Shown in pieces: positions 39,037 through 55,779 of a stretch of DNA of 64,000 nt. The number at the start of each line of letters is the position of its first letter. The stretch's first letter is position 1. Source of the stretch: Alphaproteobacteria bacterium (GTDB lineage Bacteria > Pseudomonadota > Alphaproteobacteria > Rickettsiales > SXRF01); the NCBI GenBank assembly GCA_025360605.1, contig JANYBV010000031.1, positions 129,063 to 193,062 on the forward strand, written 5' to 3'. The position numbers and the translations under genes are program-made. The notes under the pieces were generated by a model, which worked only from the letters and a program-made list of their open reading frames with translations, was not told the DNA's origin and did not search any database.

Positions 39037-39590
39037 GCAGGGATTTCAGGGGGGAATTGCTGCAACGGCTGTTGCAAACCCAGCGCGATACCTATGCGTG
39101 GCTGGGGGCTGTGCGCTATGTGGTGTATTCAAGCGATGTGCCGAAACCAGAAGAGCATGAGGATGACAGAGATTCAGGCAGGAAAAGAGTGTCCAGTGAT
39201 ATCCAAACTTCTTCCGATAGCTGGTATGAAGCACTGAATACCCAATTGATGGGCGCGTTCAGATGCGCGGAAGGGGCGTTGTCCAATGAATGGGCAAAAC
39301 AGCGCGACCCAAGGCATACGGGCCCTGACGCGGAAGAGAATTTTGCCCATTCCTTCGAATCGAATATCGCTGCCATTGCACGTACGGTGCTGGAGACTGA
39401 AAAAAAAATCGATGGTGGGCGGATCAATGAAAGCAAGCAAATGCGTGATTCCATCGGTTGGGTAAAGGCCGACCTGAAAGCGTTGATATCGCTCTATGAA
39501 GAACATTTGCATGAACTGACCATGTCGGTATCGAATGATGATTTGCTCGGTCTTCGCGCACAGATTATGGATGGGCGGACGCGGTCATGA
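39033..39590 (+). CDS. Hypothetical protein between cyaY and an ABC exporter
   Basis: The 185-residue product is soluble, mainly helical and rich in charged residues, with no signal peptide, membrane helix or known motif. It overlaps cyaY by 4 bases and the following ABC transporter by 4 bases, so the three are translationally coupled. Its conserved placement, rather than its sequence, is the main clue to function. Confidence 0.65.
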   Translation: MSRDFRGELLQRLLQTQRDTYAWLGAVRYVVYSSDVPKPEEHEDDRDSGRKRVSSDIQTSSDSWYEALNTQLMGAFRCAEGALSNEWAKQRDPRHTGPDAEENFAHSFESNIAAIARTVLETEKKIDGGRINESKQMRDSIGWVKADLKALISLYEEHLHELTMSVSNDDLLGLRAQIMDGRTRS

Positions 39591-41365
39591 GCAGTAAAAA
39601 CACCGCCGAGTTGCGCCCCAAAGGTGATGTCAAAAAACTACAATCGCTGCTGCATTACTTGAAACCGTACCGTGTGCGCATGGCGTTTGCGATTGTCGCG
39701 CTGGTGATTTCATCCTCGTCCGTACTGGGCATGGGCGCGGCGTTGCGCTATCTGGTGGATGAGGGGTTGAGCAAGGGTGACAGCGTGATGCTGGACCATG
39801 CGTTCGAGATTCTGATCGGTGTGATTATGTTGCTTTCCATCTCGACATTCACGCGTTTTTATCTGGTGTCATATATCGGTGAAAGTGTGGTTGCCGATAT
39901 TCGTAATGATGTCTACCGCCATCTGGTCGAGATGCATATCGGCTTCTTCGAAACCACGCGTACCGGCGAGCTGGTGTCGCGCCTGACGACGGATACAACG
40001 CTTCTGCAAACCGTAGTGGGCAGCACGCTTTCCGTGGCGGCACGCAACCTTTTATTGTTGGTGGGCGGCCTTGGTCTGCTGTGTTATACCAATGCCCGAC
40101 TGACGGGTTACCTGCTGATGATTGTTCCGCTGGTGGTGGTGCCGATTATTTTGCTGGGACGGCGCGTGCGTGCTTCGGCGCGTGAATCGCAAAGCCGTGT
40201 CGCCGATATCAGTTCACAGGCGGAAGAAAGCATCAATGCTATTCGCACCGTACAGTCGATGACACTGGAAAATTATGAAAAAGAGCGTTTCGCCAGCGAT
40301 GTCGATAATGCGCTGCAAGCATCGCTCAACCGCATCCGTCTGCGTGCGTTTCTCACTGCCTTTGTCATCATGCTCGTGTTCGGCGCGATTGTCACCGTGC
40401 TGTGGATGGGTGGCAAAGACGTAATCGCTGGGCGCATTTCGCATGGGCAGCTCTCGGCCTTCGTGTTTTATTCGGTGGTGGTGGCGGGCGCGGTGGGAGC
40501 CATTTCAGAAGTATGGGCAGATCTGCAACGTGCCGCCGGAGCCGCCGAGCGCTTAAGTGAATTATTATCTGTCGTGCCGGAAATCACCTCTCCCCCTCTG
40601 GCGGTGGCGGTATCCAAAACCGCACCTGCTCAGATCAGTTTTGAGCATGTGACTTTTACCTATCCAACACGCCCTGAAAAAGCCGCCATCCACGATTTCA
40701 CCCTTGATATTAAAGCGGGGCAGACGGTAGCGCTGGTCGGCCCGTCAGGTGCGGGGAAAACCACGTTGTTCCAGCTTTTGATGCGTTTTTATGATCCTGA
40801 TAGCGGGGTGGTGCGCCTGAACGGAACGGATATGAAACTGCTGTCGCTTGCCGATTTGCGCGGCATGACCGGTATCGTACCGCAGGACCCCGTCATTTTT
40901 TATGGTACGGCGCGTGACAATATCCGCATGGGCAATATCACGGCCAGTGACGACGAGGTGATGCAGGCGGCGAAAGCGGCATCGGCACTAGAATTTTTAG
41001 AGAAAATGCCCCAAGGGTTGGATACGTTTGTCGGTGAAAAAGGTGTGCAGTTGTCCGGTGGCCAGCGCCAGCGCATCGCTATTGCACGCGCACTGGTGCG
41101 TAATCCGAGATTGCTGCTGCTCGATGAAGCGACCAGCTCGCTGGATTCCGAAAATGAGCACATCATTCAGGAAGCCATGGTGCGGCTGATGGAAGGGCGC
41201 ACGACGTTTGTGATCGCCCACCGCCTCGCTACCATCACTCGTGCGGACGTCATTGTGCTGGTCAATGGCGGGAAAATAGAAGCCATGGGGACCCACAAGG
41301 AACTGCTGGTGAAAAGCCCCCTATACGCACGGCTCGCCGAGCTGCAGTTTAAAACAGCTGCTTAG
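39587..41365 (+). CDS. ABC transporter with fused membrane and ATPase domains (MsbA-related)
   Basis: The 592-residue half-transporter has a six-helix membrane domain over about residues 25-320 and a C-terminal ATPase. Walker A is GPSGAGKTT near 387, the signature LSGGQRQRIAIARA near 488, Walker B LLLLDEATSSLD near 510, and the switch His lies in IAHRLAT near 545. It resembles the MsbA-related exporters common in alphaproteobacteria, which dimerise; the substrate (lipid, drug or peptide) cannot be told. It forms an operon with cyaY and the 185-residue hypothetical protein. Confidence 0.9.
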   Translation: MSSKNTAELRPKGDVKKLQSLLHYLKPYRVRMAFAIVALVISSSSVLGMGAALRYLVDEGLSKGDSVMLDHAFEILIGVIMLLSISTFTRFYLVSYIGESVVADIRNDVYRHLVEMHIGFFETTRTGELVSRLTTDTTLLQTVVGSTLSVAARNLLLLVGGLGLLCYTNARLTGYLLMIVPLVVVPIILLGRRVRASARESQSRVADISSQAEESINAIRTVQSMTLENYEKERFASDVDNALQASLNRIRLRAFLTAFVIMLVFGAIVTVLWMGGKDVIAGRISHGQLSAFVFYSVVVAGAVGAISEVWADLQRAAGAAERLSELLSVVPEITSPPLAVAVSKTAPAQISFEHVTFTYPTRPEKAAIHDFTLDIKAGQTVALVGPSGAGKTTLFQLLMRFYDPDSGVVRLNGTDMKLLSLADLRGMTGIVPQDPVIFYGTARDNIRMGNITASDDEVMQAAKAASALEFLEKMPQGLDTFVGEKGVQLSGGQRQRIAIARALVRNPRLLLLDEATSSLDSENEHIIQEAMVRLMEGRTTFVIAHRLATITRADVIVLVNGGKIEAMGTHKELLVKSPLYARLAELQFKTAA

Positions 41366-42551: not shown

Positions 42552-43237
42552 AAATTCATGTGCTGCTGCATGTGTCCTTTGAAGGGCCGGCGAATATCCT
42601 CAAATGGGCAGCACTGAAAGGTCATAGCGTGACCGCCACCCCCTTTTTTGAACCGCAATGGTCCTTGCCTTCCACCGATAATGTCGATTTGCTGATTATT
42701 ATGGGCGGGCCGATGGGCGTGTATGACGAGGCGGAGTATCCGTGGCTGAGTCAGGAAAAAGCATTCATCCGCGATTGTATCGATGCCGGACGCGCCGTGT
42801 TTGGCATCTGTCTGGGAGCGCAGCTGGCGGCAGAGGTGCTGGGGGCAAAAGTCTATCCCAACGGGCAGAAAGAAATTGGCTGGTTCCCGCTTGAAAAAAC
42901 GTCGATTCCGCATCCGGTGTTATTTGATATGGCCCCTGACCAGATGGTGTTCCACTGGCACGGTGATACGTTCGATCTGCCCAAGGGCGCTTTGTTGCTT
43001 GCCAGCTCTGAAGCCTGCAAGCATCAGGCGTTTATCTGGAACGAACAGGTGCTGGGGTTCCAGTTCCATATGGAAATGTCCGGCGAGCATATCGACCTGC
43101 TGATCCAGAATTGCTTTCAGGATATGAAAGATAAAACTCCGTTTGTGCAGTCGGGTGCCGAGATTGAAAAAGGCTACGGACATGCCGAGGTGCTGTCGCC
43201 TTTACTGGATAGTATCCTGACGCGCTTTATGAGCTAG
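42548..43237 (+). CDS. Class I glutamine amidotransferase (GMP synthase-like)
   Basis: The 229-residue protein is a stand-alone class I glutamine amidotransferase. The oxyanion segment is IIMGGPMGVYDE near residue 50, the nucleophile Cys is in FGICLGAQLAAEVL near 85, and the His-Glu pair in GFQFHMEMS near 175. FHWHGDTFDLP near 138 is typical of the GMP-synthase-like subgroup. Some members hydrolyse gamma-glutamyl compounds. It is translationally coupled to the EAL-domain gene. Its 3' end overlaps the convergent acyltransferase by 11 bases. Confidence 0.88.
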   Translation: MKIHVLLHVSFEGPANILKWAALKGHSVTATPFFEPQWSLPSTDNVDLLIIMGGPMGVYDEAEYPWLSQEKAFIRDCIDAGRAVFGICLGAQLAAEVLGAKVYPNGQKEIGWFPLEKTSIPHPVLFDMAPDQMVFHWHGDTFDLPKGALLLASSEACKHQAFIWNEQVLGFQFHMEMSGEHIDLLIQNCFQDMKDKTPFVQSGAEIEKGYGHAEVLSPLLDSILTRFMS

Positions 43238-44327
43238 GCACATCAAAGGCCAGCAAGGGTGAAGCTTTTTTTAGCAGCCAGTTTACTAGGCGGTTTCGGT
43301 GATGGAAATACATCCAGTTATCCTCAAGTGTGCTGCCTAGGCGCAGTTTGGTTTCGTAGCCCGCCTGACCGCTTTGATAGGTGTGCAGCCCCTTATCGAG
43401 GGCGTATTGCAGGTTGGCGAACCAGCTGATGAAATAAAGATTATGCTCTTGCCCAGCATCTGTTCGCATGCAGAAAAATTTATCGAGCAGGCGGCCATGC
43501 CCCTCCAGCATCAGGTTGCAGCCGACGAGTGTGTCGCCGTGGAAATACAGCGAGCAGATGCCGTGCGGGCTTTGGGCGACGTTTAGGAAATACTCGCGTG
43601 TGAGTTCCTCAAACTGTAAGTCGCTTCGGCCTTTGGTTTCCAGATACATGGCATATATATCCTCCATGTAGGGTTCGATATTACGTGTGTATTCGATGCG
43701 TATATCGGCTTTTTTCTTCAGTTTTCGGCGCATGTCCTTGCGCGTATTAGCACTTAAAGATGCGAGATATTCCTCGGTGCTTGTAAATGCCATTGGCGAT
43801 AGGGCGGTGGGCATTCCCGCCACTCGGTGGAAATCTTTGCCACTCATCACATCATCAAACAATACCTTGTTGGCATTATTCACATCTTTGAACGCCAAAA
43901 GGTTGGTTTGGTGCGCGGCGGTATCTTCGATAAAGTAATCAAGTAGCAGGCGGAACCATTCGCGCTTTTGCTCGTTTGTGCCATCTTGGTGCATTGCAAT
44001 TTGGCATGTTTCTGTCGCAAATGAACCAATACACCCCAATTTTAGGGTCAATAAACGTGGAAAAATGCCTTTTATGCGCATAAGAACGCGTTTTATGCCC
44101 CCTTCAGCGGTGGTAGCGAGGTCATAATCAGTAAAAAAGGCGGGGAAACCGGCGAGTAAGGTGTCGCCTTCCATCAGTGCGTAATAGCATAGCCGGAAAC
44201 CGCTGATGCCAGCGCGTTCCAAAGCGAGTCCATAATCGTAATCCTCAAGCTCCGCCGTGAAACAACGGTTCCACGCGTCACGCGGAAGGTCGGCGATTGT
44301 GTCGAAACGCTTCGCCTTAAGTGGCAT
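43227..44327 (-). CDS. FemAB/GNAT-like acyltransferase (PF04339-type)
   Basis: From the ATG at 44327 the protein is 366 residues; a longer form starts 21 codons earlier. It resembles the FemAB-like branch of the GNAT fold (peptidoglycan-recognition/PF04339 type): RFDTIADLPRDAWNRCF at the start, GFPAFFTDYDLAT near 60, and the C-terminal TLVGCNLMLEGHGRLLDKF and YETKLRLGSTLEDNWMYFH-type segments near 290-340. These proteins transfer acyl or aminoacyl groups to amines. It is the last gene of the seven-gene leftward operon and overlaps the preceding hydrolase by 11 bases. Confidence 0.78.
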   Translation of the reverse strand: MPLKAKRFDTIADLPRDAWNRCFTAELEDYDYGLALERAGISGFRLCYYALMEGDTLLAGFPAFFTDYDLATTAEGGIKRVLMRIKGIFPRLLTLKLGCIGSFATETCQIAMHQDGTNEQKREWFRLLLDYFIEDTAAHQTNLLAFKDVNNANKVLFDDVMSGKDFHRVAGMPTALSPMAFTSTEEYLASLSANTRKDMRRKLKKKADIRIEYTRNIEPYMEDIYAMYLETKGRSDLQFEELTREYFLNVAQSPHGICSLYFHGDTLVGCNLMLEGHGRLLDKFFCMRTDAGQEHNLYFISWFANLQYALDKGLHTYQSGQAGYETKLRLGSTLEDNWMYFHHRNRLVNWLLKKASPLLAFDVPSS

Positions 44328-45120
44328 GGAGGGATTTCTCGAAATAGGCAGCCGTGAGGTCGGCGACTTTCTCATGTTCGCGATCGACATGAATCATGTG
44401 ATAGCTGTCTTCCAGCCAGTGTAGTTCGTGCGGCGCGGCCATATGTTTATCAATGTATATCGAATGGCGTGGGTGGCTTAAGTCATCCTCACGCGCGTGC
44501 ATGATGACGGCGGGGGTGGACATTTGCGGCAGGCTTTTTTTGAAGGCCTTCGACAGTGATAGCATTTCTTTCAGTGCGGGCACGGGGAAATCATCCAGCA
44601 CGCCTTCGGTGGAAAGGCGCTGCATGGCTTTGCGCAGGCGTTCGTCCTTGATGCCGATGCTTGGCGTTTCGGCAAACTGGATATCTTTGAAAAACGGAAT
44701 TTGCGCCGTCCATAGCGGCAGATAGGATAACACCTTATAATGGAACGGTACGTTCCAGCCGTCATAACGGAAGCAGGCGGAATAGAGCGCATTGGCCTTA
44801 AAAAGATCAGGCTGTTCCTTGGCGGCCATCATGCCGAGCTTGCCGCCGACACAAATACCCGCAGAAAACAGCGCATCCACGTTCGGGCGGAAGTCATTGG
44901 CGGCCACCAGCACGCTGTCCAGCCAGTCGCGCCAGCCGGTTTTAATCAGCGTGGCCTCATCCACGCCGTGACCTGCCAGCAGCGGCGCATACACGGTGTA
45001 GCCTTTTTTATTGAGCGCTTTGCCCACCCATTTCATTTCCGCAGGTACGCCGGTGAGGCCGTGTATCAGCAACACGCCTTTGCCATTGGTGCCTTCCATG
45101 CGGAAACTTAAATCGCTCAT
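44317..45120 (-). CDS. Alpha/beta hydrolase with Cys nucleophile elbow
   Basis: The 267-residue protein has a clear alpha/beta hydrolase layout: LLIHGLTGVPAEM near residue 17, YAPLLAGHG near 43, the acid in HAREDDLSH near 213 and the His in DSYHMIHVDRE near 240. The nucleophile elbow reads SAGICVGGKLG near 85, so the usual Ser is Cys (G-x-C-x-G). Cys nucleophiles occur in dienelactone hydrolases and some acyltransferases. This suggests transfer or thioester chemistry rather than ordinary esterase work, but that is inference. It lies in the seven-gene operon, after the desaturase. Confidence 0.82.
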   Translation of the reverse strand: MSDLSFRMEGTNGKGVLLIHGLTGVPAEMKWVGKALNKKGYTVYAPLLAGHGVDEATLIKTGWRDWLDSVLVAANDFRPNVDALFSAGICVGGKLGMMAAKEQPDLFKANALYSACFRYDGWNVPFHYKVLSYLPLWTAQIPFFKDIQFAETPSIGIKDERLRKAMQRLSTEGVLDDFPVPALKEMLSLSKAFKKSLPQMSTPAVIMHAREDDLSHPRHSIYIDKHMAAPHELHWLEDSYHMIHVDREHEKVADLTAAYFEKSLHAT

Positions 45121-45171
45121 AATTTTATCCTAGGCATGAAACGCAAAGCCGCCACACCAACCCTTTGTGTT

Positions 45172-46023
45172 TCATGCTGCCTGATTCATCTCAAGGAAAC
45201 CCAGCGCATGGCAATGCTTTATCACATGCACGCCTTCGGCTTTTTGCTGGTCGCGGATAGATTCATGGAACTGCTTCATTTTCATCCAGTGCATGCGCGG
45301 ACGGAAATGATGTTCGGCGTGGTAACCGTTATTGAACCAGATGAGGTTATAGAGCGTATTATAGCTACTGACACCCCACGCAATCGGTTTGTCGGGATTA
45401 GCGCCGTAATGCTCGAAATAGCCGTTGAGCGAGGACAGGCAGTTGCCCAGATAGTTGAACGCAATCATCACCGCGAGTGATTTCCAGCTAATGAACGCCA
45501 TCACAATCACCATCAGCGCGAGGCACACCAGCTCAATAATACCGAAATGCGCGTTGGCAGGGCTTTGTTTGTGAAGGCCTTTGTACAGTGCCTTGATGTC
45601 GTCGCGGAAAAAGCTTTTGAACGCGTACGACCAGATGTTTTCCGGTTTGCCGTCGCGTCCGTATTTATAGATGGAAAGCCAGTCCACCGTTTCGCCCTTG
45701 TCGTTGGGCAGGTCGGAGTTGCCGCTGTGGTGGCGGTTATGCACCCATGTGTAAAAGGCCTGCGAGAAACCGATAGCGAGCGATTCGACCAGACTGAAGG
45801 CGCGGTTGAGTGCGTGTGAATTGAAATAGGCGTTATGCAGAAAGTTGTGCGAAATGCCGTTGATATTCCATGAAATGCTTACCGCATAGAGGCACAATAG
45901 CGGCAGCGATACGACCAGTGGCAGCACCGGCAGGTTGAAAAATAACCAGATGACAAACCACAGATGCGCGATGCCTGCGATGACAGGGATAATATCCCAG
46001 TTAGAATGTGTGAAGAGTTTCAT
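45172..46023 (-). CDS. Membrane fatty-acid desaturase
   Basis: The 283-residue protein has the three His boxes of membrane di-iron desaturases: SHNFLHNAY (HxxxH, near residue 60), WVHNRHHSGN (HxxHH, near 92) and YHAEHHFRP (HxxHH, near 235). Paired helices lie near 10-50 and 160-190. It introduces a double bond, or hydroxylates, an acyl-type substrate in the membrane with an electron donor encoded elsewhere. Its start overlaps the ureohydrolase stop by 4 bases. The hydrolase follows 51 bases later. Confidence 0.9.
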   Translation of the reverse strand: MKLFTHSNWDIIPVIAGIAHLWFVIWLFFNLPVLPLVVSLPLLCLYAVSISWNINGISHNFLHNAYFNSHALNRAFSLVESLAIGFSQAFYTWVHNRHHSGNSDLPNDKGETVDWLSIYKYGRDGKPENIWSYAFKSFFRDDIKALYKGLHKQSPANAHFGIIELVCLALMVIVMAFISWKSLAVMIAFNYLGNCLSSLNGYFEHYGANPDKPIAWGVSSYNTLYNLIWFNNGYHAEHHFRPRMHWMKMKQFHESIRDQQKAEGVHVIKHCHALGFLEMNQAA

Positions 46024-46919
46024 ACCGCCTCACGAATACAGTTGAGTAAAGCAAGATTGCTCGCCTGATTGACTGCCGAGGCTATGGCCATATTGATATG
46101 TTTGGGCTGGTCAATCAGCGATTCGAGTGTTTTTAACGCCACATGCAGCTTACGTCCAGCGTAATGCGCGGGGCTGTAATCTCCGGTAACGTCAATGCCG
46201 ATGGCATGGTGTTTGGACAGGATGAAACGCATCGTTGATAACAGGCGGTCAATGGGCATGTTACCCTGATCCCAGTTGGTAATGGCATCGACATGGGAAA
46301 GCACATCTTTGTCGATGGTAATGTAGACGTTGCGGGTGGTAATAGCAGAGCGAAGATTGGCCAAAAACTCATCCTCGGCCATGTCATCAATGTCCAGCGC
46401 GCGGAAACGGCTGCTGGGGGAGTGCCACGGCATCAGGTCGATCTTGCCGTCCTGCCACGCTTTCAGGTTGGCGCCCTTGATCCACGGGCGCACGAGGTCG
46501 CGGCTGCACACGCCGATGGTGATGACCTTGTTAACTTGCGGCAGGTCGAGGGCACGGTTGACCCACGAGCCGCAATGCATACCGCTGCTGTGCATGACCC
46601 AGTCGGGGTGGTTATCAAAATGGATGACGGTAAACGGTTCGCCGCTGGTTTCTGCGAGCATACCGATCAGCAGCGCGCTGATATGGTGGAAATCGCCGGA
46701 GCCCATGAAGGTGACTACCGTATCTTTATTGTGCGTGCGGGCGATGGAACGCAGCAATGTCTGGCGCAGTTCTTCGAGATTTTGCTCCTTACCCCACAGC
46801 CGCACATGCGCTGCTTCCTGCTGGGCGTTGGTTTCGCGGGCATTGAGTTTCATGCTGGCTTGCATGAAATCCGGCTGCGATTTCAATGCATCGTCAAGGT
46901 GGAGCAGATTCAGGATCAT
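46020..46919 (-). CDS. Ureohydrolase (arginase/agmatinase family)
   Basis: The 299-residue protein has the metal-binding motifs of ureohydrolases: GSGDFHHIS near residue 73 (family GGDHS), HFDNHPDW near 97 (DxHxD), and ITIDKDVLSHVD near 195 (DxDxxxxD). All Mn ligands seem present. The family hydrolyses guanidino compounds such as arginine, agmatine and guanidinobutyrate to the amine plus urea; the exact substrate is not visible. It lies between the DUF4337-like gene (6 bases) and the desaturase, and may free an amine for the later steps. Confidence 0.85.
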   Translation of the reverse strand: MILNLLHLDDALKSQPDFMQASMKLNARETNAQQEAAHVRLWGKEQNLEELRQTLLRSIARTHNKDTVVTFMGSGDFHHISALLIGMLAETSGEPFTVIHFDNHPDWVMHSSGMHCGSWVNRALDLPQVNKVITIGVCSRDLVRPWIKGANLKAWQDGKIDLMPWHSPSSRFRALDIDDMAEDEFLANLRSAITTRNVYITIDKDVLSHVDAITNWDQGNMPIDRLLSTMRFILSKHHAIGIDVTGDYSPAHYAGRKLHVALKTLESLIDQPKHINMAIASAVNQASNLALLNCIREAV

Positions 46920-46925
46920 ACAAAA

Positions 46926-47462
46926 CTAGTGTAAAAACGCGACGGCCGCATAATAAAGGCCACCCAACGACAGTAATAACGTCATATACAGGAAGTGGTG
47001 GCGCTTGGTGATCGCTGCCATAGCGGTGATGGCAATGGCAATCTGGAAGGCGGTAACCGACTTGGCCAGCGTTTCGTGCTGGTGCATGAAATACTGGGAT
47101 TTATTTTCTTCCTCAGTGGCTTGTTCCTTGATTTCTTCCTGTTCTTTTTTGTAGCGGGCGAGTTTTTCTGTTAAGGCATCAGCGGCACCGGCCTTGTTTT
47201 TTTCCAGCAAATCGCTGTGCATCTCGGTGATAACGGCTTTGATGCCCTTGGCCTGATAATAGCCCCAGTGGTCGGTGGCGTGCATTTGTTCCAGCATGGC
47301 TTCGTTGGCATAATGCGCGGCATAAAGGCCGCAGGTGGCGGCAGCTACGGCAAGTACGGCGGAAATCAGGGCAGCAAACAGAAGCCAGCTTTCTTTGCTG
47401 TGTTCGGCATGGTGGTTGATGGCTTCCTGCTGGTCTTCAACGGAAATTTCAAGTTCTTCCAT
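46926..47462 (-). CDS. DUF4337-like membrane protein
   Basis: The 178-residue protein has an acidic N-terminus (MEELEISVEDQQEAINHHAEHSKES, residues 1-25), a helix near 30-50 (LLFAALISAVLAVAAATCG), a long charged helical region to about 130 that could form a coiled coil, and two C-terminal helices near 130-175. This matches DUF4337 as I recall it; function is unknown. It sits inside the operon, 3 bases after the aminotransferase and 6 before the ureohydrolase. Confidence 0.75.
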   Translation of the reverse strand: MEELEISVEDQQEAINHHAEHSKESWLLFAALISAVLAVAAATCGLYAAHYANEAMLEQMHATDHWGYYQAKGIKAVITEMHSDLLEKNKAGAADALTEKLARYKKEQEEIKEQATEEENKSQYFMHQHETLAKSVTAFQIAIAITAMAAITKRHHFLYMTLLLSLGGLYYAAVAFLH

Positions 47463-47465
47463 GAC

Positions 47466-48899
47466 CTAAAAACCTGTTTTCTGGCACCTGCGGATGAGTT
47501 GGTCGATCAAGTTGAGGCCAAGATCGATTTCCTCATGAGAAATGGTGAGTGCCGGTGCGAAGGTGATCACGTTTTTGTGATAGCCGCCAATGTCGAGTAC
47601 GAGGCCGTATTTCTTTCCATTTACTACGAGGTCGCCCTTCATGGCTTCGTCGCACATGCGGTCGGTCATCGCCTTGTCGGGGGTGAAGCCGTCTTCGGTG
47701 CAGATTTCAGCGCGTAGCGCCAGACCCAGACCATCAACATCGCCGATGATTTTGTGCTTTTTCTGGAGTTCCTTCAGGCCTTCGAGGAAATATTTGCCTT
47801 TGGACATCACCATCGTTTCGAAATCGGTTTCCGCGAATACGCGCATGGTTTCCAGACCCGCAGCCGTACCGATTGGGTTAGAGGCGAAGGTGGAATGCGT
47901 CGATCCAGGTGGGAAGATCGTCGGGTTGATCATTGCTTCTTTGGCCCAGATGCCTGACAGCGGGTTGAGGCCGTTGGTGAGCGCTTTGCCGAATACGAGA
48001 ACATCAGGGGTAACGCCGAAATGTTCAATCGAGAACAGCTTGCCGGTGCGGTAGAAACCCATCTGGATTTCATCGACAACCATTAAAATACCGTATTTAT
48101 CGAGGACTTTTTTCAGTTCCGAGAAATAGTTCATTGGCGGGATAACGTAGCCGCCGGTGCCCTGCAATGGTTCAACATAAAATGCGGCATATTCGCATTT
48201 TTGTGCTTTAGGATCCCATACGCCGTAATATTCGGTTTCGAACATGCGGGCGAATTTTTTCACACATTCATGGCCGTATTCTTCTTTGGTCATGCCTTTC
48301 GGGCCACGGAACAAATATGGGAATTCGATGAACTGCGCGCGGTCGCCAAAATGGCCGTAGCGGCGGCGGTAACGGTAACTCGACGTGATGGCGGATGCAC
48401 CGAGCGTGCGGCCATGGTAGCCGCCTTCAAAGGCGAACATCAGGCTTTTACCACCAGTATAATTGCGGACGATTTTGAGCGAGTCTTCCACTGCCTGCGA
48501 ACCGCCGACGTTGAAATGGATGCGCCCTTTTTCGCCACCGAATTTCTTTTCCATGTGCTGGGCGAGCATGGCGGAAAGCTCGATTTTTTCGCGGTGCAGA
48601 TATTGCGATGCTACCTGCGGCAGCTGGTCGAGCTGGCGTTTTACGGCGTTGTTGATGCGTGGGTGCGCATAACCGAGATTAACGGCAGAATACCACATTT
48701 GCAGGTCGAGGAAGGGTGTGCCGGCGGCATCGTACATGTAGGAGCCTTCGCAGCGGTCAAAGATTTTTGGTTCTTCGAGGTAATGAACCGTATCACCGAA
48801 CGAGCAATATTTCTTTTCCATTTCCAGCAGTTCTTTTTCCGGAATAGAAAAGGTTTCATCTGCGGGCTTTACCGCGGTGAGTACGGGGGCATTACGCAT
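47466..48899 (-). CDS. Class III PLP aminotransferase
   Basis: The 477-residue enzyme is a class III (omega-type) aminotransferase, the group that uses GABA, ornithine, putrescine or similar amines. Signatures are NVGGSQAVEDSLKIVRNYTG near residue 130, FEGGYHGRTLGASAI near 158, VVDEIQMGFYRTG near 272 (cofactor Asp), and the PLP Lys in FGKALTNGLNPLSG near 303. It overlaps the HAD phosphatase gene by 8 bases and is 3 bases before the DUF4337-like gene. The substrate is probably an amine related to the ureohydrolase product, by context only. Confidence 0.88.
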   Translation of the reverse strand: MRNAPVLTAVKPADETFSIPEKELLEMEKKYCSFGDTVHYLEEPKIFDRCEGSYMYDAAGTPFLDLQMWYSAVNLGYAHPRINNAVKRQLDQLPQVASQYLHREKIELSAMLAQHMEKKFGGEKGRIHFNVGGSQAVEDSLKIVRNYTGGKSLMFAFEGGYHGRTLGASAITSSYRYRRRYGHFGDRAQFIEFPYLFRGPKGMTKEEYGHECVKKFARMFETEYYGVWDPKAQKCEYAAFYVEPLQGTGGYVIPPMNYFSELKKVLDKYGILMVVDEIQMGFYRTGKLFSIEHFGVTPDVLVFGKALTNGLNPLSGIWAKEAMINPTIFPPGSTHSTFASNPIGTAAGLETMRVFAETDFETMVMSKGKYFLEGLKELQKKHKIIGDVDGLGLALRAEICTEDGFTPDKAMTDRMCDEAMKGDLVVNGKKYGLVLDIGGYHKNVITFAPALTISHEEIDLGLNLIDQLIRRCQKTGF

Positions 48900-49596
48900 A
48901 GATTTCTTCCTTGGTTAGTGGCGGGAATACGAGGTCGTGTTGCTCGATGTAGTTGAGGAGCAGTACGGAGGCTTCAGAAAAACTAGTAAATGGCTGATGT
49001 GGTAATTCCTGCTGCTGGCAATAGGCGAGCAGAGAATCTTTGGCGAGGATGAAATCAGCCTCTTCCGCGCTTACACAATAATCCGAGCGGCCATCGCCGA
49101 CATAGAGGATTTTGCCGGAGTTTGTTAAGGTACGCATCTGGCGAGAAATGGCGCATTTGCAGGTCGATTGCTGGGAGCTGCAACCCGCGTTGGCGAAGGG
49201 GGATGATAATTCCCAGCGGTCTTCCTTCACATGGGCAAGGTGGCTGGCGATGACGTGCAGGTGGCTGAGGCCGTGGCGCTTGAGTACGTATTTTATCACA
49301 TAATCCAAGCCATCACTTGCGATGATGAGCGGCACATTGTTCTTGGCGCAAACAGCGGCAAATGATTTGAAATGCGGATCAATATGAATGCTGTCAGCCA
49401 GTGCATCGACTTGTGCGGGGGTGGCACGCAACAGATCGATTTGTTGCTGCATGCAGGCACGCGAACCGATGTGGCCTTTTTTCCACGCATCTTCTACTTC
49501 CATCCACTCGGGGAGAGCATATTGCTCAAGAAGTGCATCCGTTGCATCTTCGGCGGTGATCGTGTGGTCGAAGTCACAGAGTACAGCTAAACTCAT
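48892..49596 (-). CDS. HAD-superfamily phosphatase (MtnX/SerB-like)
   Basis: The 234-residue protein is a HAD-type phosphatase of the MtnX/phosphoserine phosphatase group. Motif I is LCDFDHTIT near residue 6 (DxD), motif II ASDG near 93, and motif IV GDGRSDYC near 157. It is cytosolic and removes phosphate from a small organic substrate. It is the first gene of the seven-gene operon, and AGGAAA precedes its ATG by 5 bases. The 107-base gap upstream contains no gene; a CTGTA/TACAG inverted repeat lies near 49633-49649. Confidence 0.85.
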   Translation of the reverse strand: MSLAVLCDFDHTITAEDATDALLEQYALPEWMEVEDAWKKGHIGSRACMQQQIDLLRATPAQVDALADSIHIDPHFKSFAAVCAKNNVPLIIASDGLDYVIKYVLKRHGLSHLHVIASHLAHVKEDRWELSSPFANAGCSSQQSTCKCAISRQMRTLTNSGKILYVGDGRSDYCVSAEEADFILAKDSLLAYCQQQELPHQPFTSFSEASVLLLNYIEQHDLVFPPLTKEEIYA

Positions 49597-49703
49597 TAAT
49601 TTTCCTGCTCTTGCATATTAGTGGCCATTACAGACTGTATACTCTCTACAGGTTGAAACTGATGCCAAGATGAAGCCAAGGTGAAGATAGATGATTTTTA
49701 TGC

Positions 49704-51086
49704 CTAAAGCGTAAAGCGGATAACCACGCATAAGCCCTTGTTATTTTCTGGGGTTTTCATGGTTATTTCGGCGTTTAGCAAGTCTGCAATCTGGCTGGCA
49801 ATGGCAAGACCAAGGCCGCTTCCCGATTGTTTGGTGCCGGAAATGCGGTAAAAACGGTCGAATACCTTGGCTCGTTCGGATTCAGGAATTCCGGCGCCGC
49901 TGTCAGTGATCGCAATCGTCATCTGCGCGGCATCACGGGTTGCAGTAATTGCGATATGTCCGTCTTCGGGCGTATATTTGACAGCGTTTTCAAGGATAGT
50001 GCCTATTAGCGTGCGTAGTAATTCCGGCTGGCTTTGAAGTGTTAATGACTTATCCACCTGAATATCTATCAGTTGGTTTTTATGCATGATTTTGTTGGCA
50101 AGCATGTTGAGCGCTTCCGTAATGATTTGCTCAACATGAACCGTTTCAAGGGTGATATTCTGGCTAGACATGCGCGACATTAACAAGAGCTGATCCATCA
50201 GTTTGGAGGTGCGGTCAACACCCGCCAGCAATTCTGCAAGCTGAACGGAAGATGTCGGATCTTTGATGGATTTACTCAATAATTGCGCCTGTAGCTTTAA
50301 TGCAGAAAGCGGCGTTCGCAGCTCATGCGCGGCATGATCAATAAACTCACGTTCATGCACCAGCGCTTCTTCCAGTTTGGAGAGCAGGGAATTAACTGAA
50401 TTGGCCAAAGGTTTCAGTTCTTTGGGCAGGTAATCGGAGTCCATATAGGAAAGATCCGTAGGCGAGCGTGTGGCGAGTTTTCCGGCTAACTGGCGCAGCC
50501 CCTTCAGACCAAAACCAACACCAATAGAAAACAGCAATCCAAGTACTGGCAGCGCAATCAATAATGGAGCCAGAATGTCCAGCAGGATATCGAGCTGCAT
50601 AATATCGCGGTCACGAAGGTTTTCAATCGTGGTGACCACCAGATTATTTTGATCATCGTGAATGGAAAAAGTGCGCCAGATGTCTTTTCCTAACGTGAAA
50701 TTGCTAAATCCCTTCGCAAAAGGTTTGTCAGGAAACATATCCGCATTGTCCGAGTGCATGACCAGTTTGCCCTTGTACCAGACACGAAAGGCGCGCCACT
50801 GTGCATAATCCAGCATGGAGTCTTTTTCGACATTGCCTAGCAGGTTGGCTGTTTTCTCAGCGTCAAAAGCTTCCACTGCAAAGGCAGACATACGGCCATC
50901 TTTGGAGTCTTCTTCCAGAATTTCCCAGAGGATTCCCGCTTCGGTAATCAGCTGGGCGTCATAGTCTTCGGAAATATTGATGCGGGCGCTGTGCAGGCCG
51001 AGCAGGCCGACGACAATCATGGTCAGTACATTCAGTCCCGCAACACACAGGAAAAGGCGAAGAGTGAGTGAACTTGGACGTTTCAT
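49704..51086 (-). CDS. Sensor histidine kinase, QseC/PmrB-like
   Basis: The 460-residue kinase has a membrane helix near residues 9-29, a periplasmic domain to about 165 as in QseC-type sensors, a second helix near 168-192 and a HAMP-like linker. The phospho-acceptor His is in DHAAHELRTPLSALK near 255. The ATPase domain has ENAVKYTPEDG near 370, ITDSGAGIPESE (G1) near 395 and GSGLGLAIASQI (G2) near 425. Its ATG overlaps the response-regulator stop by 4 bases. By position it probably controls the adjacent sugar-modification genes, as PmrB/QseC do for lipid A modification. Confidence 0.92.
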   Translation of the reverse strand: MKRPSSLTLRLFLCVAGLNVLTMIVVGLLGLHSARINISEDYDAQLITEAGILWEILEEDSKDGRMSAFAVEAFDAEKTANLLGNVEKDSMLDYAQWRAFRVWYKGKLVMHSDNADMFPDKPFAKGFSNFTLGKDIWRTFSIHDDQNNLVVTTIENLRDRDIMQLDILLDILAPLLIALPVLGLLFSIGVGFGLKGLRQLAGKLATRSPTDLSYMDSDYLPKELKPLANSVNSLLSKLEEALVHEREFIDHAAHELRTPLSALKLQAQLLSKSIKDPTSSVQLAELLAGVDRTSKLMDQLLLMSRMSSQNITLETVHVEQIITEALNMLANKIMHKNQLIDIQVDKSLTLQSQPELLRTLIGTILENAVKYTPEDGHIAITATRDAAQMTIAITDSGAGIPESERAKVFDRFYRISGTKQSGSGLGLAIASQIADLLNAEITMKTPENNKGLCVVIRFTL

Positions 51087-51739
51087 GCTTTCACCATGTA
51101 GCCGACACCCCGCAGCGTATGAATAAATTCCTTGCCGAGCTTTTTACGCAGGTTGTAGATGCTAACTTCGACCGTGTTGCTGTCTACTTCCTCACTCCAG
51201 CCATACAGCGATTCTTCTATCTCGGCCTTGCTGACGATTTTATTAATACGCTCCATCAGAAGGCTGCATACACGCAGTTCCTTGGCGGTCAGTATAACCT
51301 GCTCACCGTTTTTTGTGAGGGTGCGTGAGGTGGTATTGAGTTCAATATCACCCGCGCGCAAGGTGGCATCCGAACGGTCCTGCACACGCCGCGTGAGCGA
51401 GCGGATGCGTGCGAGTAGCTCCTCAAAATCAAACGGTTTAGTCAGGTAGTCGTCGGCGCCGGAATCTAGCCCCTTAACCTTGTATTCCAGTGAATCCATA
51501 GCAGTCAGCATCAACACCGGCAGATTCTTGCTGGTGGAGCGCAGCTTTTTGACCACTTCAATGCCGGATAATTTGGGGAGGTTCATGTCCAGCAGCATAA
51601 GATCGAACTGGCTGGTTTCAGTGGCGAGGAGGGCGGCTTCACCGTCTTCCACCCATTCAATGTTGTGGCCGGATTGTTCCAGACCACGTTTGAGGGAGTT
51701 TCCGAGCATGGTGTCATCTTCTACGAGTAGCAGACGCAT
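51083..51739 (-). CDS. OmpR-family response regulator, QseB/PmrA-like
   Basis: The 218-residue regulator has a receiver domain with VEDDTMLG near residue 6, the phospho-acceptor Asp in LMLLDMNLP near 51 and the Lys in YLTKPF near 101. The C-terminal winged helix (Trans_reg_C) covers about 125-218, with TAKELRVCSLLM and VEVSIYNLRKKLG. It is coupled to the kinase downstream and lies 12 bases after the ArnA-dehydrogenase-like gene, so it may control its own operon. Confidence 0.94.
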   Translation of the reverse strand: MRLLLVEDDTMLGNSLKRGLEQSGHNIEWVEDGEAALLATETSQFDLMLLDMNLPKLSGIEVVKKLRSTSKNLPVLMLTAMDSLEYKVKGLDSGADDYLTKPFDFEELLARIRSLTRRVQDRSDATLRAGDIELNTTSRTLTKNGEQVILTAKELRVCSLLMERINKIVSKAEIEESLYGWSEEVDSNTVEVSIYNLRKKLGKEFIHTLRGVGYMVKA

Positions 51740-51751
51740 AGCTTTGTGTCC

Positions 51752-52792
51752 TCAGGCAGTGGCCAGCAGTTTTTCCGTGTCGGCGTAATAATAGCTGATG
51801 GTTTTGCGGACCGCATCACGCATATTGGTGGTTGGCTTCCAGCCAAGAAGGTTGGCTGCCTTATTAATTTTTGGAACCCGTGTATCAATGTCCTGATAAC
51901 CGGCACCATAATATTCCTGACCATTGGCTACGGTGATTTTGACCTGCGAACGGATGGTCTCAAAGCCTTTAAACTCACGCATGATGTCCAGCATCATATC
52001 AGCAAGTTCGGCAATTGACGCCTCGTTGCCCGGATGGCCGATATTGAAAATCTGGTTGTTGGCACCGCCGTTTTTATTTTCAATGATGCGCACCAGCGCA
52101 TCGATGGCATCGTCGATATAGATGAAGCAGCGCTTCTGTGCGCCGCCATCAATAAGCACGATGTCTTTTTTATGGAGGATGTTGCTGAGAAACTTGGTGA
52201 CCACGCGGTTGGATTTGCCCTGCACCCACGGATTATCCAGCTTGGGGCCGAACCAGTTGAACGGGCGGAACAGGGTGTAGGACAGGCCGTGATGCGCTCC
52301 GTAAGCGTATATCACGCGGTCGAGCATTTGTTTCGAGCAGGAGTAAATCCAACGTTCTTTATTGATGGGGCCGGTTACAAGATTGCTGGTTTCCTCATCG
52401 TATGGGCTGTCCTCGCTCATGCCATATACTTCCGAGGTGGAAGGGAAAATCAGACGTTTCTTGTGCTTGACGCACATGCGGACGATCTGCAGATTGGCTT
52501 CGAAATCCAGCTCGAATACCGAGAGAGGTTCGTTGACATAGGTGGCGGGGTTGGCAATGGCAGCCAACGGCAAAACCACATCACATTCCGCTACGCGCGC
52601 TTCAATCCAGTCCATTTGCTTGCGAAGGTCACCCTCAACAAAATGAAAACGCGGATCGCCACGACTGTCACTGAGTTTTTCGGATGACAAATCCATGGCA
52701 AAAATCTCCCAGTCCTTATGTTTAAGGATGTGAGCGCTTAAATTGCTGCCAATGAAACCGTTGGCACCGATAATCAGTATTTTTTGGGTCAT
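51752..52792 (-). CDS. ArnA C-terminal-like UDP-sugar decarboxylase/dehydrogenase
   Basis: The 346-residue protein aligns with the C-terminal domain of ArnA, which oxidises and decarboxylates UDP-glucuronate to UDP-4-keto-arabinose. The NAD loop is GANGFIGS near residue 9. FPSTSEVYG near 117 carries the Ser and Glu, WIYSCSK near 148 holds the Tyr-x3-Lys pair, and KRCFIYIDD near 224 holds the Arg that, with the Glu, marks the decarboxylating type. The ArnA formyltransferase domain is absent. A 147-base gap separates it from the ArnB-like gene upstream. Confidence 0.87.
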   Translation of the reverse strand: MTQKILIIGANGFIGSNLSAHILKHKDWEIFAMDLSSEKLSDSRGDPRFHFVEGDLRKQMDWIEARVAECDVVLPLAAIANPATYVNEPLSVFELDFEANLQIVRMCVKHKKRLIFPSTSEVYGMSEDSPYDEETSNLVTGPINKERWIYSCSKQMLDRVIYAYGAHHGLSYTLFRPFNWFGPKLDNPWVQGKSNRVVTKFLSNILHKKDIVLIDGGAQKRCFIYIDDAIDALVRIIENKNGGANNQIFNIGHPGNEASIAELADMMLDIMREFKGFETIRSQVKITVANGQEYYGAGYQDIDTRVPKINKAANLLGWKPTTNMRDAVRKTISYYYADTEKLLATA

Positions 52793-52939
52793 AAATTCTA
52801 CTACGTTGGATTAAACCGCTTTGTTTCCTGTGCTGCCGCTGCTCACGTATAAGGCATACGCTGCGCTGCGGTTCTCGGAAACTTCGCTCTTAATCTCACC
52901 GTAGCGAATTTACCGAGGTACTGAATTTGCATACAGGAT

Positions 52940-54100
52940 CTAAACCCTTCCCAGTACTTTTTCCAGTGATTTCAGCACGCGGTCCTGTTCAGCCTCGGTC
53001 ATGGTGGGGAATAAGGGCAGGCTCATGATACGTTCACCCGAGCGCAAGGACTCAGGGAAATCAGTCGGTTGCCAGCCATACTGGTCTTTGTACCACGAGA
53101 AGGTGTGGGCAGACTGGTAATGTAGGCCGATACCGATATTTTCGGTTTTCATGGCATTGATAAAAGCGTCGCGATCCAGCCCTGCCTTATTGGTTTGCAG
53201 GCGCGGCGTGAACAGGTGCCATGCGTGGCGGTGGGCGTAGGCGGGAGCTTGGGGGAGGGTGAATTCGCTCCAGCTCGATAATTCCTTGCTATAAATGTCT
53301 GCCAGCCGGCGCCGCCGGTCGATAAAACCATCCAGTTCGGGGAGCTGGTGGATGCCCAGCGCCGCCTGAATATCCATCATGTTGTATTTGAATCCGGGCA
53401 TGGCAATGTCATATTGCTGGCTGCCGCTTTTAGCAAAGCGGTTGAAGGCATTACGGTCTATGCCATGAAATCGCAGGCGTTCTATTTTACTGATGACATC
53501 GGCATCGGAGGTGATGACGGCTCCGCCTTCGCCGGTAGTCATGTTTTTGTTGGGATGAAAACTCATCACCTGTATGTCGCCGAACGAACCGATGCGTTTG
53601 CCTTTATACTCCGCGCCGATGGCATGGGCGCAATCTTCGACCACGCGCAGGGAATGTTTGGCGGCGAGGGCATAAATGGGGTCGAGATCGACCGGAAGTC
53701 CGGCAAAATGTACGGGCATAATGACGCGGGTGCGTTTGGTAATGGCGGCTTCCAGTTTGGTAACATCCATGTTGAGTGTGCCCGCCTCGCTGTCTACCAG
53801 CACCGGTTTGCCACCGGCAAGGACGATGCAGTTGAGCGTGGCGGCAAAGGTCATCGGCGAGGTAATGACCTCGTCGCCTTCTTCAAGATTGAGTGCCAGC
53901 AATGCTACATGCAATCCCGCCGTAGCGGAGGATACACATAGCGCCCGCCGTCCGCCGTGATAGGCGGTGAGCATTTCTTCAAATTTTTGCACGCGCGGGC
54001 CGGTGGTGATCCACCCCGAACGCAAGGTGGCGACCACCTCTTCAATAGCGGCTTCGCTTAAAGCCGGTTTGGCAAAGGGTAAAAAAGGCAGTTCGGTCAT
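52940..54100 (-). CDS. arnB: ArnB-like UDP-4-amino-4-deoxy-arabinose aminotransferase
   Basis: From the ATG at 54100 (MTELPFLPFAKPAL) the enzyme is 386 residues. It is a DegT/DnrJ-type PLP aminotransferase closely resembling ArnB: LRSGWITTGP near residue 28, SSATAGLHVALLALNLEEGDE near 57-77, MPVHFAGLPVDLDPIYALA near 125, and the PLP Lys in SFHPNKNMTTGEGG near 182. ArnB aminates UDP-4-keto-arabinose to UDP-L-Ara4N. AAGAAAGAA is a good ribosome site. Its ATG overlaps the stop of the glycosyltransferase upstream (ATGA). Confidence 0.85.
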   Translation of the reverse strand: MTELPFLPFAKPALSEAAIEEVVATLRSGWITTGPRVQKFEEMLTAYHGGRRALCVSSATAGLHVALLALNLEEGDEVITSPMTFAATLNCIVLAGGKPVLVDSEAGTLNMDVTKLEAAITKRTRVIMPVHFAGLPVDLDPIYALAAKHSLRVVEDCAHAIGAEYKGKRIGSFGDIQVMSFHPNKNMTTGEGGAVITSDADVISKIERLRFHGIDRNAFNRFAKSGSQQYDIAMPGFKYNMMDIQAALGIHQLPELDGFIDRRRRLADIYSKELSSWSEFTLPQAPAYAHRHAWHLFTPRLQTNKAGLDRDAFINAMKTENIGIGLHYQSAHTFSWYKDQYGWQPTDFPESLRSGERIMSLPLFPTMTEAEQDRVLKSLEKVLGRV

Positions 54101-55779
54101 CGTGATTCTTTCTTCATGAGGATGGTCTTGCCATAGCTGGCGATGGGTTTTAAGTGGCATCCGGATGGAGACTTGAGGTCTTCCAGCCTGTTGGAATTAA
54201 TAAATACGAATACGTTGTGGGTGCTGGTAGCACAACGTTTCCAGAAGGTTTCGGGCGAGATCATCCAGTCATGCGTTTCGGGGTAATGTTCTACACCAAA
54301 AGTCAGCTCGCCTGTCCAGCCGACGACCGTGATGTTGCGCCCCAGATAAACAGGCAAATCCTGCCAGTAGGTGTCGTAAGCGGCTACGATATCCAGCGGT
54401 TTCAATTGCGGTAGCAATTCGACGGCGAGTGATTTGGTGCTGGCTTTATCCAGTGAACCGGCCATGAAATTGGCGGTGATGCCGGTGACCATACCAAAGC
54501 CCAGCAGCGACAGAATGAGTCTGGGCGTGGGGCATGGGCGCAACAATATTAACGAAAGCCATAGCAACACGGCTACCATCGGTAATAGCGGGATAAAAGA
54601 AATACTGCTGGTGACGGCGTTGATTTTCATTCCAAGGTTGCCGGACAATACCGGCGATAGTTGCGTCACCAGTATCAGTACACCAAACACTATGATTACC
54701 AGAATGGCATTCCGGCGCAGCGGTTCCAGCGGCAGGCTGTAATTCCACAATAGCGACAGGCGATGGCCCAGCAGGATGCATAGCGGCGGGAAAATCGGGA
54801 AGATGTAAGGCACGAGCTTGGAATGTGAGGTCGAGAAAAACAGCAGCGGCAACAGGATCCACAATAACAAAAACAACGTGTTTGGTTCGCGCCACTGGAT
54901 TTTCTTAAACACTGAAGGTAACAGGCCGCTCCAAGGCAAAAAACCCACCCATGTTACGGCGATGAAAAACCACCACGGCGCGGTGCGTTTATGTTCATTG
55001 GTCATGTAGCGAGTGAAATGCTCGTGGATGAAATAAAAATTCAGGAAATCGGGATGCGTCTGCGCCATTAGCAGGTGCCACTGCACGGTGATGGCCAGAA
55101 AAATTAGCGTTCCGGCAATTAGCTGTACTTCTTTAAGTAGCCGCCAGCGCCCGAGTATGGCAATCCACGCACCGATAACGAGTCCGGGGATGACAATGCC
55201 GATCAGCCCTTTGGTCATCACCGCCAGTGCCGAGGCCACATACATCAGCAGGTAGCGGTTACGTTTGCGGGATTTTTTCTGTGTGTGCTGGGCGGCAAGG
55301 AAACAGGCAAGGCAGGCGCTGATAAACAGGCTCACCGGCACGTCGAGTGTGGCCACACGGCTTAAGCCATAACCCATGACCGAGCTGGCCAGAACGCCGG
55401 CTGCCAGCAGGCCACTGGCGCGGCCATAAAGCAGGCGGGCGAGCGCGTAGGTGGTGAGGCAGGTGAAGGTCGTGAGCAGTGCCGTCATAAAACGTCCCGC
55501 AAATTCCCCCATGCCGAACGTGTGCATTACCAGTGCCTGCATCCAGTAAAACAGCGGCGGCTTTTCAAAGTACGGCACGCCGTTGATACGCGGGGTCAGC
55601 CAGTCTTCGGTGGCGAGCATCTGGCGGGGAAGCTCGATGTAGCGTGCCTCGCTGGGAATCAGGTAGGGGCGGGCACCAAGACCCAAGCAGAATAACAGGC
55701 CAACGGCCAGAAAAAGATGTATCAGGTCGCGGCGGTAACTTGCCTTAGGATTGATCGTCAGGTTAATGCCCATGTTCAC
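54097..55779 (-). CDS. ArnT-like glycosyltransferase 1 (PMT/GT83-type)
   Basis: The 560-residue protein is a polytopic GT-C transferase with about twelve helices. The N-terminal loop carries SEARYIELPRQMLATEDWLT near 39-58, and YFEKPPLFYWMQALVM near 69 is the conserved EKPP motif of ArnT and related transferases. ArnT moves Ara4N from undecaprenyl phosphate to lipid A at the periplasmic face. The C-terminal domain of about 130 residues is soluble. It overlaps the following ArnT-like gene by 17 bases and the ArnB-like gene by 4. Confidence 0.83.
   Translation of the reverse strand: MNMGINLTINPKASYRRDLIHLFLAVGLLFCLGLGARPYLIPSEARYIELPRQMLATEDWLTPRINGVPYFEKPPLFYWMQALVMHTFGMGEFAGRFMTALLTTFTCLTTYALARLLYGRASGLLAAGVLASSVMGYGLSRVATLDVPVSLFISACLACFLAAQHTQKKSRKRNRYLLMYVASALAVMTKGLIGIVIPGLVIGAWIAILGRWRLLKEVQLIAGTLIFLAITVQWHLLMAQTHPDFLNFYFIHEHFTRYMTNEHKRTAPWWFFIAVTWVGFLPWSGLLPSVFKKIQWREPNTLFLLLWILLPLLFFSTSHSKLVPYIFPIFPPLCILLGHRLSLLWNYSLPLEPLRRNAILVIIVFGVLILVTQLSPVLSGNLGMKINAVTSSISFIPLLPMVAVLLWLSLILLRPCPTPRLILSLLGFGMVTGITANFMAGSLDKASTKSLAVELLPQLKPLDIVAAYDTYWQDLPVYLGRNITVVGWTGELTFGVEHYPETHDWMISPETFWKRCATSTHNVFVFINSNRLEDLKSPSGCHLKPIASYGKTILMKKESR

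Follow-up and report, generated by a model that had tools for sequence, protein, structure and literature searches.

What might a bacterium assemble with a phosphatase, an aminotransferase, an arginase-fold protein, a desaturase, a hydrolase and a FemAB-like transferase encoded side by side? The question is raised by seven open reading frames on the minus strand (43227-49596) of a 64,000-nucleotide stretch of contig JANYBV010000031.1, here called the window, from an alphaproteobacterium of the order Rickettsiales (assembly GCA_025360605.1) with a genome of 2.68 Mb. Their order is HAD phosphatase (HAD), class III aminotransferase (AT), DUF4337 protein, arginase-fold protein (Ure), desaturase (Des), alpha/beta hydrolase (AB) and FemAB-like transferase (Fem); all seven leftward genes named in an initial annotation of this DNA are present, and each has a Pfam match. 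We consider it an even call that they form an operon dedicated to making an envelope lipid and controlled by a two-component system resembling PmrAB and QseBC. The sequences show a core of HAD, AT and AB, usually joined by Ure and Fem and often by ArnE/ArnF-like subunits, and a conserved tandem candidate operator ahead of the first gene where an OmpR-type regulator is present. The combination had not been recognised as a described pathway, and the literature searched for the operon, mostly outside subscription papers, yielded no description of it.

A recurring gene set

Tight gene spacing supports the view that the seven genes form one transcription unit. HAD and AT overlap by 8 bases, gaps of 3 and 6 bases separate AT from DUF4337 and DUF4337 from Ure, Ure and Des overlap by 4 bases, and 51 bases lie between Des and AB. 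AB and Fem overlap by 74 bases if Fem begins at its first ATG (44390) but by 11 if it begins at the ATG at 44327. The range originally given, with overlaps of 4-11 and gaps of 3-51 bases, thus fails for the first ATG and holds for the later start, near which several homologues begin.

A search for the same neighbourhood, the check suggested at the outset, recovered the set elsewhere in the order (seven genomes and part of an eighth) and, in variant forms, in other proteobacteria, a recurrence beyond what chance would give. Counting the window's own, 9 of 90 related genomes encode Ure, and AT is found in the same nine at E 1e-120 or better; Fem is present in eight of these, and in the ninth (G053) the contig, 3,980 bases long, ends ahead of the expected Fem position. 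Seven of the other eight genomes keep the gene order HAD-AT-Ure-Des-AB-Fem, adjoined by the regulator, the kinase or both; the eighth locus (L020) is the partial set on the 3,980-base contig and has the desaturase on the opposite strand. A small EamA/SMR-type gene lies between Ure and the desaturase in five of these eight loci (L015, L017, L018, L019 and L021).

For a wider survey, a collection was scanned with an AT profile and the best 80 of at least 585 relatives (E 1e-3, genome contigs) were studied; together with nine loci from the genome searches these make 89 loci, L015 and L025 being one contig counted twice. A gene is counted at a locus if it matches at more than 50 bits and lies no further than 9 kb away, some loci being short, and in a subset of 71 loci the sequence extends 8 kb or more to either side. 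Named carriers among the 80 are Rhizobium, Agrobacterium, Caulobacter, Bosea, Pseudomonas (in a variant order), Pigmentiphaga and Xanthomonadales, and many of the carriers are soil and plant bacteria. The 89 loci contain AB in 81 cases, HAD in 75, a kinase in 64, Ure and Fem in 63 each, the SMR-type subunits SMR2 and SMR1 in 54 and 39, MipA in 48, an OmpR-type regulator in 38, a desaturase in 36, a cyclopropane synthase in 29 and an NtrC-type regulator in 28; short SMR genes are under-counted because only matches above 50 bits count. Within the 71-locus subset Ure and Fem occur together in 53 loci, Fem alone in one, Ure alone in none and neither in 17, and a desaturase without Ure is found in none. 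The DUF4337 membrane protein (46926..47462; PF14235, 2.3e-31) had been proposed as a possible anchor, an idea weakened by its presence in only two of the eight order loci (L014 and L018) and in none of the 80 collection loci; it is not part of the core and we list it as accessory.

Of 398 Pseudomonadota genomes sampled, 25 have the AT subfamily at E 1e-150, and of 289 genomes of the class, 2 have it at E 1e-120; the window's own genome is in both counts. AT is also carried on 34 plasmid records, chiefly from Rhizobium, Agrobacterium and Bartonella, and four plasmid regions were read. The Rhizobium sp. BG4 plasmid has the whole set, desaturase included, an A. fabrum plasmid has the set without the desaturase, and an X. 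sacchari plasmid has a rearranged set together with a beta-ketoacyl-ACP synthase (KAS), an acyl carrier protein (ACP) and a DegT-type aminotransferase. On a Bartonella sp. plasmid only AT, a GNAT protein and a third protein in the Ure position are found. A reduced set of AT-Fem-Ure stands beside genes that look cyanophycin-synthetase-like by eye and a CphA-associated ABC transporter (1362 bits) in L063 (9830-20757), and beside a DltB-like MBOAT acyltransferase on a Bartonella plasmid (L107:9956-16005). None of the seven operon proteins matches the anti-phage defence models of PADLOC-DB at E 1e-5.

A two-component system and a candidate operator

Genes for a sensor histidine kinase and a response regulator precede the operon on the same strand. 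The kinase (49704..51086) is QseC/PmrB-like, scoring 224.4 bits against QseC (cut-off 475) and 154.7 against PmrB (cut-off 314), and the OmpR-type regulator (51083..51739) is PmrA/QseB-like, with PmrA as its best model (213.7 bits, cut-off 330). Both genes also adjoin the operon in other loci. The kinase stop lies 107 bases upstream of the HAD start, and inside that gap a period test and a motif point to a candidate response-regulator operator (49654..49686, minus strand) of about three tandem units spaced by 11 bp, TCACCTTGGCT-TCATCTTGGCA-TCAGTTT. Regulators of the PhoB/OmpR type bind tandem 11-bp repeats.

In the 31 regions with an OmpR-type regulator, window included, which are partly close relatives and from which L026, L091, L064, L096, L102, L055 and L058 were kept out by hand, a period-11 direct repeat upstream of HAD gives a mean of 7.03 of 8 matches as compared with 4.92 for the null (z 14.7), the null being 60 shuffles of two-base blocks and not true dinucleotide shuffles. 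Seven other periods in the same regions give z values of -1.6 to 1.0, and upstream of 44 other loci the period-11 excess is weak (z 4.5). Of 24 non-redundant regions, 23 carry the motif TTTCATTTTCGCATCATTTTC, with L094 as the exception read from the sampler list, a list in which the sampler assigns a site to every region. A matrix was then made from these sites with L094 and two duplicates left out, and its scores on its own sites are not independent because it was trained on them; L018, L029 and L059 were outside the training, yet carry an operator site. Sites of at least 14 bits precede the first genes in 32 of 33 scanned loci, and the exception, L090, has no such regulator nearby. Using an 18-base consensus, a pattern derived partly from the window's own site, we found the window site to be the sole match without mismatch in the genome. 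A -10 box at one fixed distance was not seen across the 22 operator sites shown.

Operator-like sites occur before other genes as well. In Phyllobacterium a 27.8-bit site lies ahead of a cyclopropane synthase gene. In two Rhizobium-type loci (L032:18102-20567 and L040:18146-20611) sites of 26.2 and 24.3 bits, respectively, are found upstream of a gene for an 821-amino-acid protein that looks caspase-like by eye; such neighbours near Rhizobium loci had been guessed from their length to be lysyl-phosphatidylglycerol (lysyl-PG) synthases, a candidate that we rejected.

The enzymes

AT (47466..48899; Aminotran_3, PF00202, 3e-78) is the best-conserved gene of the operon, with 67-85% identity to nine other rows of its alignment, and the pyridoxal phosphate (PLP)-lysine motif and DEIQ are present in 89 of 89 homologues. 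For all 25 NCBIfam matches listed its score stays below the cut-off, and it is treated here as a distinct subfamily. The first operon gene (48892..49596) encodes an MtnX-like HAD-IB phosphatase (TIGR01489, 101.8 bits with a cut-off of 81.55; Pfam HAD 2.7e-14 and Put_Phosphatase 3.2e-13) with the motifs DFDHT and GDGRSD; HAD motifs are found in 75 of 75 homologues, and the closest solved sequence is 2fea.

Ure (46020..46919; Arginase, PF00491, 1.3e-10) has been assigned to guanidino hydrolysis, a reading that its active site weakens. Its model (pLDDT 92.8) aligns structurally to arginases and guanidinases with Z 22-24, and the metal-site motifs GSGD[FY]HH, DNHPD and DKD, plus TNWDQG, are present in 60 of 60 homologues; the binuclear metal-site motifs (His, DxHxD and DxD) are invariant across 22 rows of the alignment. 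Ure resembles the ureohydrolases (agmatinase, arginase and guanidinase) in fold and metal-site motifs. It differs from them at the agmatinase DxxE motif, whose Glu has a role in guanidinium binding: in the profile alignment DVVE/DIVE of agmatinases falls on DxxG of Ure, so that Gly replaces the Glu, and D[VI]xG[DE], with its invariant Gly followed by Asp or Glu, is found in 60 of 60 homologues. Cleavage of guanidine by Ure is therefore doubtful, as far as these alignments allow. A PDB sequence search with Ure alone gave no match at E 0.01, and one with its alignment gave just weak agmatinase and arginase matches. Viral contigs contained no Ure relative; the sole two matches among phage records are MT837186.1 and MT837145.1, small unannotated 'Bacteriophage sp.' entries from human faeces with distant relatives of Ure (33% and 28% identity, respectively, over 61-67% of the query).

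Fem (43227..44390, probable start 44327; FemAB_like, PF04339, 2.9e-08) has, according to its model (pLDDT 90.8), a tandem GNAT fold. The best structural match is Sbb17 (Z 22.9, 274 residues aligned, root-mean-square deviation 2.8), and by their titles the 22 top matches, with Z 18.5-22.9, are the aminoacyl-tRNA-dependent peptide synthases Sbb17 and Sba18, FemX, FemA and the MprF domains of lysyl- or alanyl-PG synthases (Z 18.5-21.6 for the FemX, FemA and MprF domains). Other tandem GNATs (Z 18.1) and N-myristoyltransferases (Z ~17) follow over similar lengths, and since the latter trail the FemX-type matches so closely the donor may be either an aminoacyl-tRNA or an acyl thioester. A PDB sequence search with Fem alone found nothing at E 0.1. 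A bacterial ceramide synthase is a possible family mate, the available part of its description (PMC11324152) naming no domain; a Caulobacter genome encodes a strong PF04339 protein.

These matches raise the possibility that Fem transfers an amino acid from its tRNA onto a lipid's amine or head group, that AB takes it off again and that an unusual acceptor is made by the other enzymes. MprF/LpiA transferases are paired with AcvB-type hydrolases, and the operon is alike in the tandem-GNAT fold of Fem, in its alpha/beta hydrolase partner and in the overlap of the AB and Fem genes. However, Fem, at 387 amino acids, matches the soluble synthase domain alone (model residues ~27-382) and is without the N-terminal membrane (flippase) domain of MprF, the operon adds AT, HAD, Ure and a desaturase, a xanthomonad version includes an ACP, and the scores of the other tandem GNATs and N-myristoyltransferases are close behind. 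We regard this scheme as unlikely; it overlaps the envelope-lipid explanation, so the probabilities that we attach to the two do not sum to one.

AB (44317..45120; Hydrolase_4, PF12146, 7.6e-17) has relatives of the LipS and monoacylglycerol-lipase type and carries Cys at the nucleophile position (GICVGG), where Ser is usual. Across 81 AB sequences the nucleophile is Cys in 39 and Ser in 41, with one unparsed (L024, Ser by inspection). A desaturase is present at the locus of 34 of the 39 Cys-type proteins and of none of the 41 Ser-type proteins; L082, outside this count, has Ser and a desaturase. The Cys/Ser switch within this one family (the window and loci L025-L104) thus largely tracks the presence of the desaturase, and the AB tree indicates that part of the correlation is shared ancestry. 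The desaturase-like protein itself (45172..46023; FA_desaturase, PF00487, 1.2e-26) is a membrane protein whose His boxes HNFLH, HNRHH and HAEHH are kept in 35, 36 and 34 of 36 homologues, respectively.

An aminotransferase, an arginase-fold enzyme and a lipase-like enzyme are typical of catabolism, and an operon for scavenging or degrading amines, guanidines or lipids of plants and soil would suit the many carriers that live there. By eye, Pseudomonas loci have an amino-acid-type ABC permease (9 loci) and a binding protein (7 loci) nearby, and Dpp-type permeases lie in the vicinity of 5-6 other loci, but such importer-like genes are confined to few lineages. Such an operon would also leave no evident place for the desaturase, Fem, the ArnE/F-like subunits, KAS and ACP or the PmrA/QseB-like regulator, and we find it very improbable.

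Links to the envelope and a possible product

Several features of the locus recall the Arn/PmrAB system, which adds 4-amino-4-deoxy-L-arabinose (L-Ara4N) to lipid A: the PmrA/PmrB-like genes, the ArnE/ArnF-like SMR proteins of relatives, the amine chemistry and the arn-like genes upstream in the window. The last of these (51752-57424; the dehydrogenase part only of ArnA, an ArnB-like gene and two tandem ArnT-like genes) lead into the two-component system and end 12 bases ahead of the response regulator; ArnC, ArnD, ArnE and ArnF were not recognised among the open reading frames scanned near them. The resemblance extends to control and flippase but not to the enzymes. No more than 4 of the 89 loci have ArnA inside the 9-kb range, and the operon set has a class III aminotransferase, HAD, an arginase fold, a FemAB-like protein and a desaturase instead. 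ArnB labels (1 of 89, with DegT at 8) are not decisive because ArnB clusters with other DegT aminotransferases, and ArnC, ArnD and ArnT were not among the queries of the locus counts.

The SMR proteins of relatives score under the Arn cut-offs: in L028, SMR1 is best matched by ArnE (49.5, cut-off 92) and SMR2 by ArnF (49.6, cut-off 99), and in L097 both are best matched by ArnF (51.1 and 39.3). The window operon is without SMR genes, but on contig C40 of its own genome the genes for SMR1, another desaturase and SMR2 adjoin each other; this SMR pair may serve the operon or the neighbouring arn-like genes. The C40 cluster (L148:6848-9507) comprises a sugar-nucleotide epimerase-like gene (by eye), an ArnE/F-type SMR, the desaturase paralogue and the second SMR.

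MipA offers another link. The available text of PMC10936184 describes P. aeruginosa MipA as induced by polymyxin through ParRS, stabilised by polymyxin and a proposed co-sensor for ParRS, and most mipA genes screened there have an adjoining two-component system. The MipA counts given above rest on a family that was Pfam-checked on one representative. As in MipAB-ParRS, so far as that text describes it (PMC10936184), a MipA-family gene stands near two-component genes in many related loci; it differs in adjoining the biosynthetic set in those loci and in being absent from the window locus.

Several observations weigh against the envelope-lipid explanation, and the missing MipA gene near the window operon is one of them. 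The C40 SMR pair could instead serve the arn genes. At two mismatches or fewer the operator consensus has 55 genome matches (1 with none, 4 with one and 50 with two) as compared with 9 for the backward control, so that weaker sites are not separable from base composition. An NtrC-type regulator is near 28 of 89 loci and an OmpR-type regulator near only 38, and the signal may therefore differ between loci. In 8 of 71 loci HAD-AT-AB stands apart from all other listed genes, and 5 of 71 have AT-Ure-Fem only, so the modules may serve partly separate pathways. Finally, MacB-, HlyD- and TolC-like genes near 14, 13 and 10 of 89 loci, respectively, suggest secretion.

These pump genes would be expected if the set made a secreted specialised metabolite (a lipo-amine antibiotic, surfactant or signal), an acyl-amine exported by MacB/HlyD/TolC-type pumps with the ArnE/F-like proteins as exporters. 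ABC ATPase-like genes are near 33 of 89 loci, genes for TolC, ABC and HlyD/adaptor proteins adjoin the set on the A. fabrum and X. sacchari plasmids, and the patchy spread of AT, its plasmid copies and the KAS and ACP of the xanthomonad locus also fit. In the window, an MsbA-like ABC transporter gene (39587-41365; 779.8 bits to TIGR02204, just below the cut-off of 780.4) lies on the opposite strand ~1.9 kb past the operon end, and a relative of it is near the operon in L014. However, 75 of the 89 loci, some of them short, have no MacB-type permease within 9 kb, the PmrA/QseB-like regulator and MipA favour an envelope role, and the desaturase is a membrane enzyme. We rate secretion of such a metabolite as somewhat improbable.

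Returning to the envelope-lipid explanation, we infer the order of steps, the substrates and the product as follows. The sensor would detect envelope stress, such as cationic peptides or similar, and the regulator would activate the operon. AT would add an amine to a small or acyl precursor, HAD would remove a phosphate, and Ure would hydrolyse a C-N bond, probably not that of plain guanidine. The amine would receive an acyl (or aminoacyl) group through Fem, the chain would be tailored by the desaturase and, in relatives, by the cyclopropane synthase, and AB would trim or transfer an acyl group via a Cys or Ser acyl-enzyme. The product would be flipped to the periplasmic leaflet by the ArnE/F-like subunits, whose genes lie at a second locus in the window genome. 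Ornithine lipid synthesis by OlsB and OlsA likewise proceeds by N-acylation of an amine, the same logic as proposed here; no operon protein is assigned to an Ols family among the Pfam and NCBIfam matches listed. The acylated amine or amino lipid envisaged in the initial annotation is a plausible product that fits the desaturase, the FemX/N-myristoyltransferase fold of Fem, the xanthomonad KAS and ACP, the cyclopropane synthase of 29 of 89 loci and the ArnE/F-like subunits.

More tentatively, and as a possibility that we would not favour at present, the operon may make a new class of cationic membrane lipid, its amine supplied by AT and a non-guanidine Ure, its acyl or aminoacyl group joined by a FemX-fold enzyme, flipped by ArnE/F-like proteins and induced by a PmrA-like regulator, which would serve plant- and soil-associated proteobacteria as an alternative to L-Ara4N and lysyl-PG against cationic peptides. 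If the envelope-lipid explanation is true, an unrecognised inducible envelope-lipid pathway would be spread over proteobacteria, since plant-associated pseudomonads and relatives of symbionts are among the carriers in the best 80 loci. A set of PmrA-like regulators, MipA proteins and an arginase-fold family whose active site has changed would each gain a role, and bacteria would be credited with a further way of tolerating cationic peptides such as those of plant nodules.

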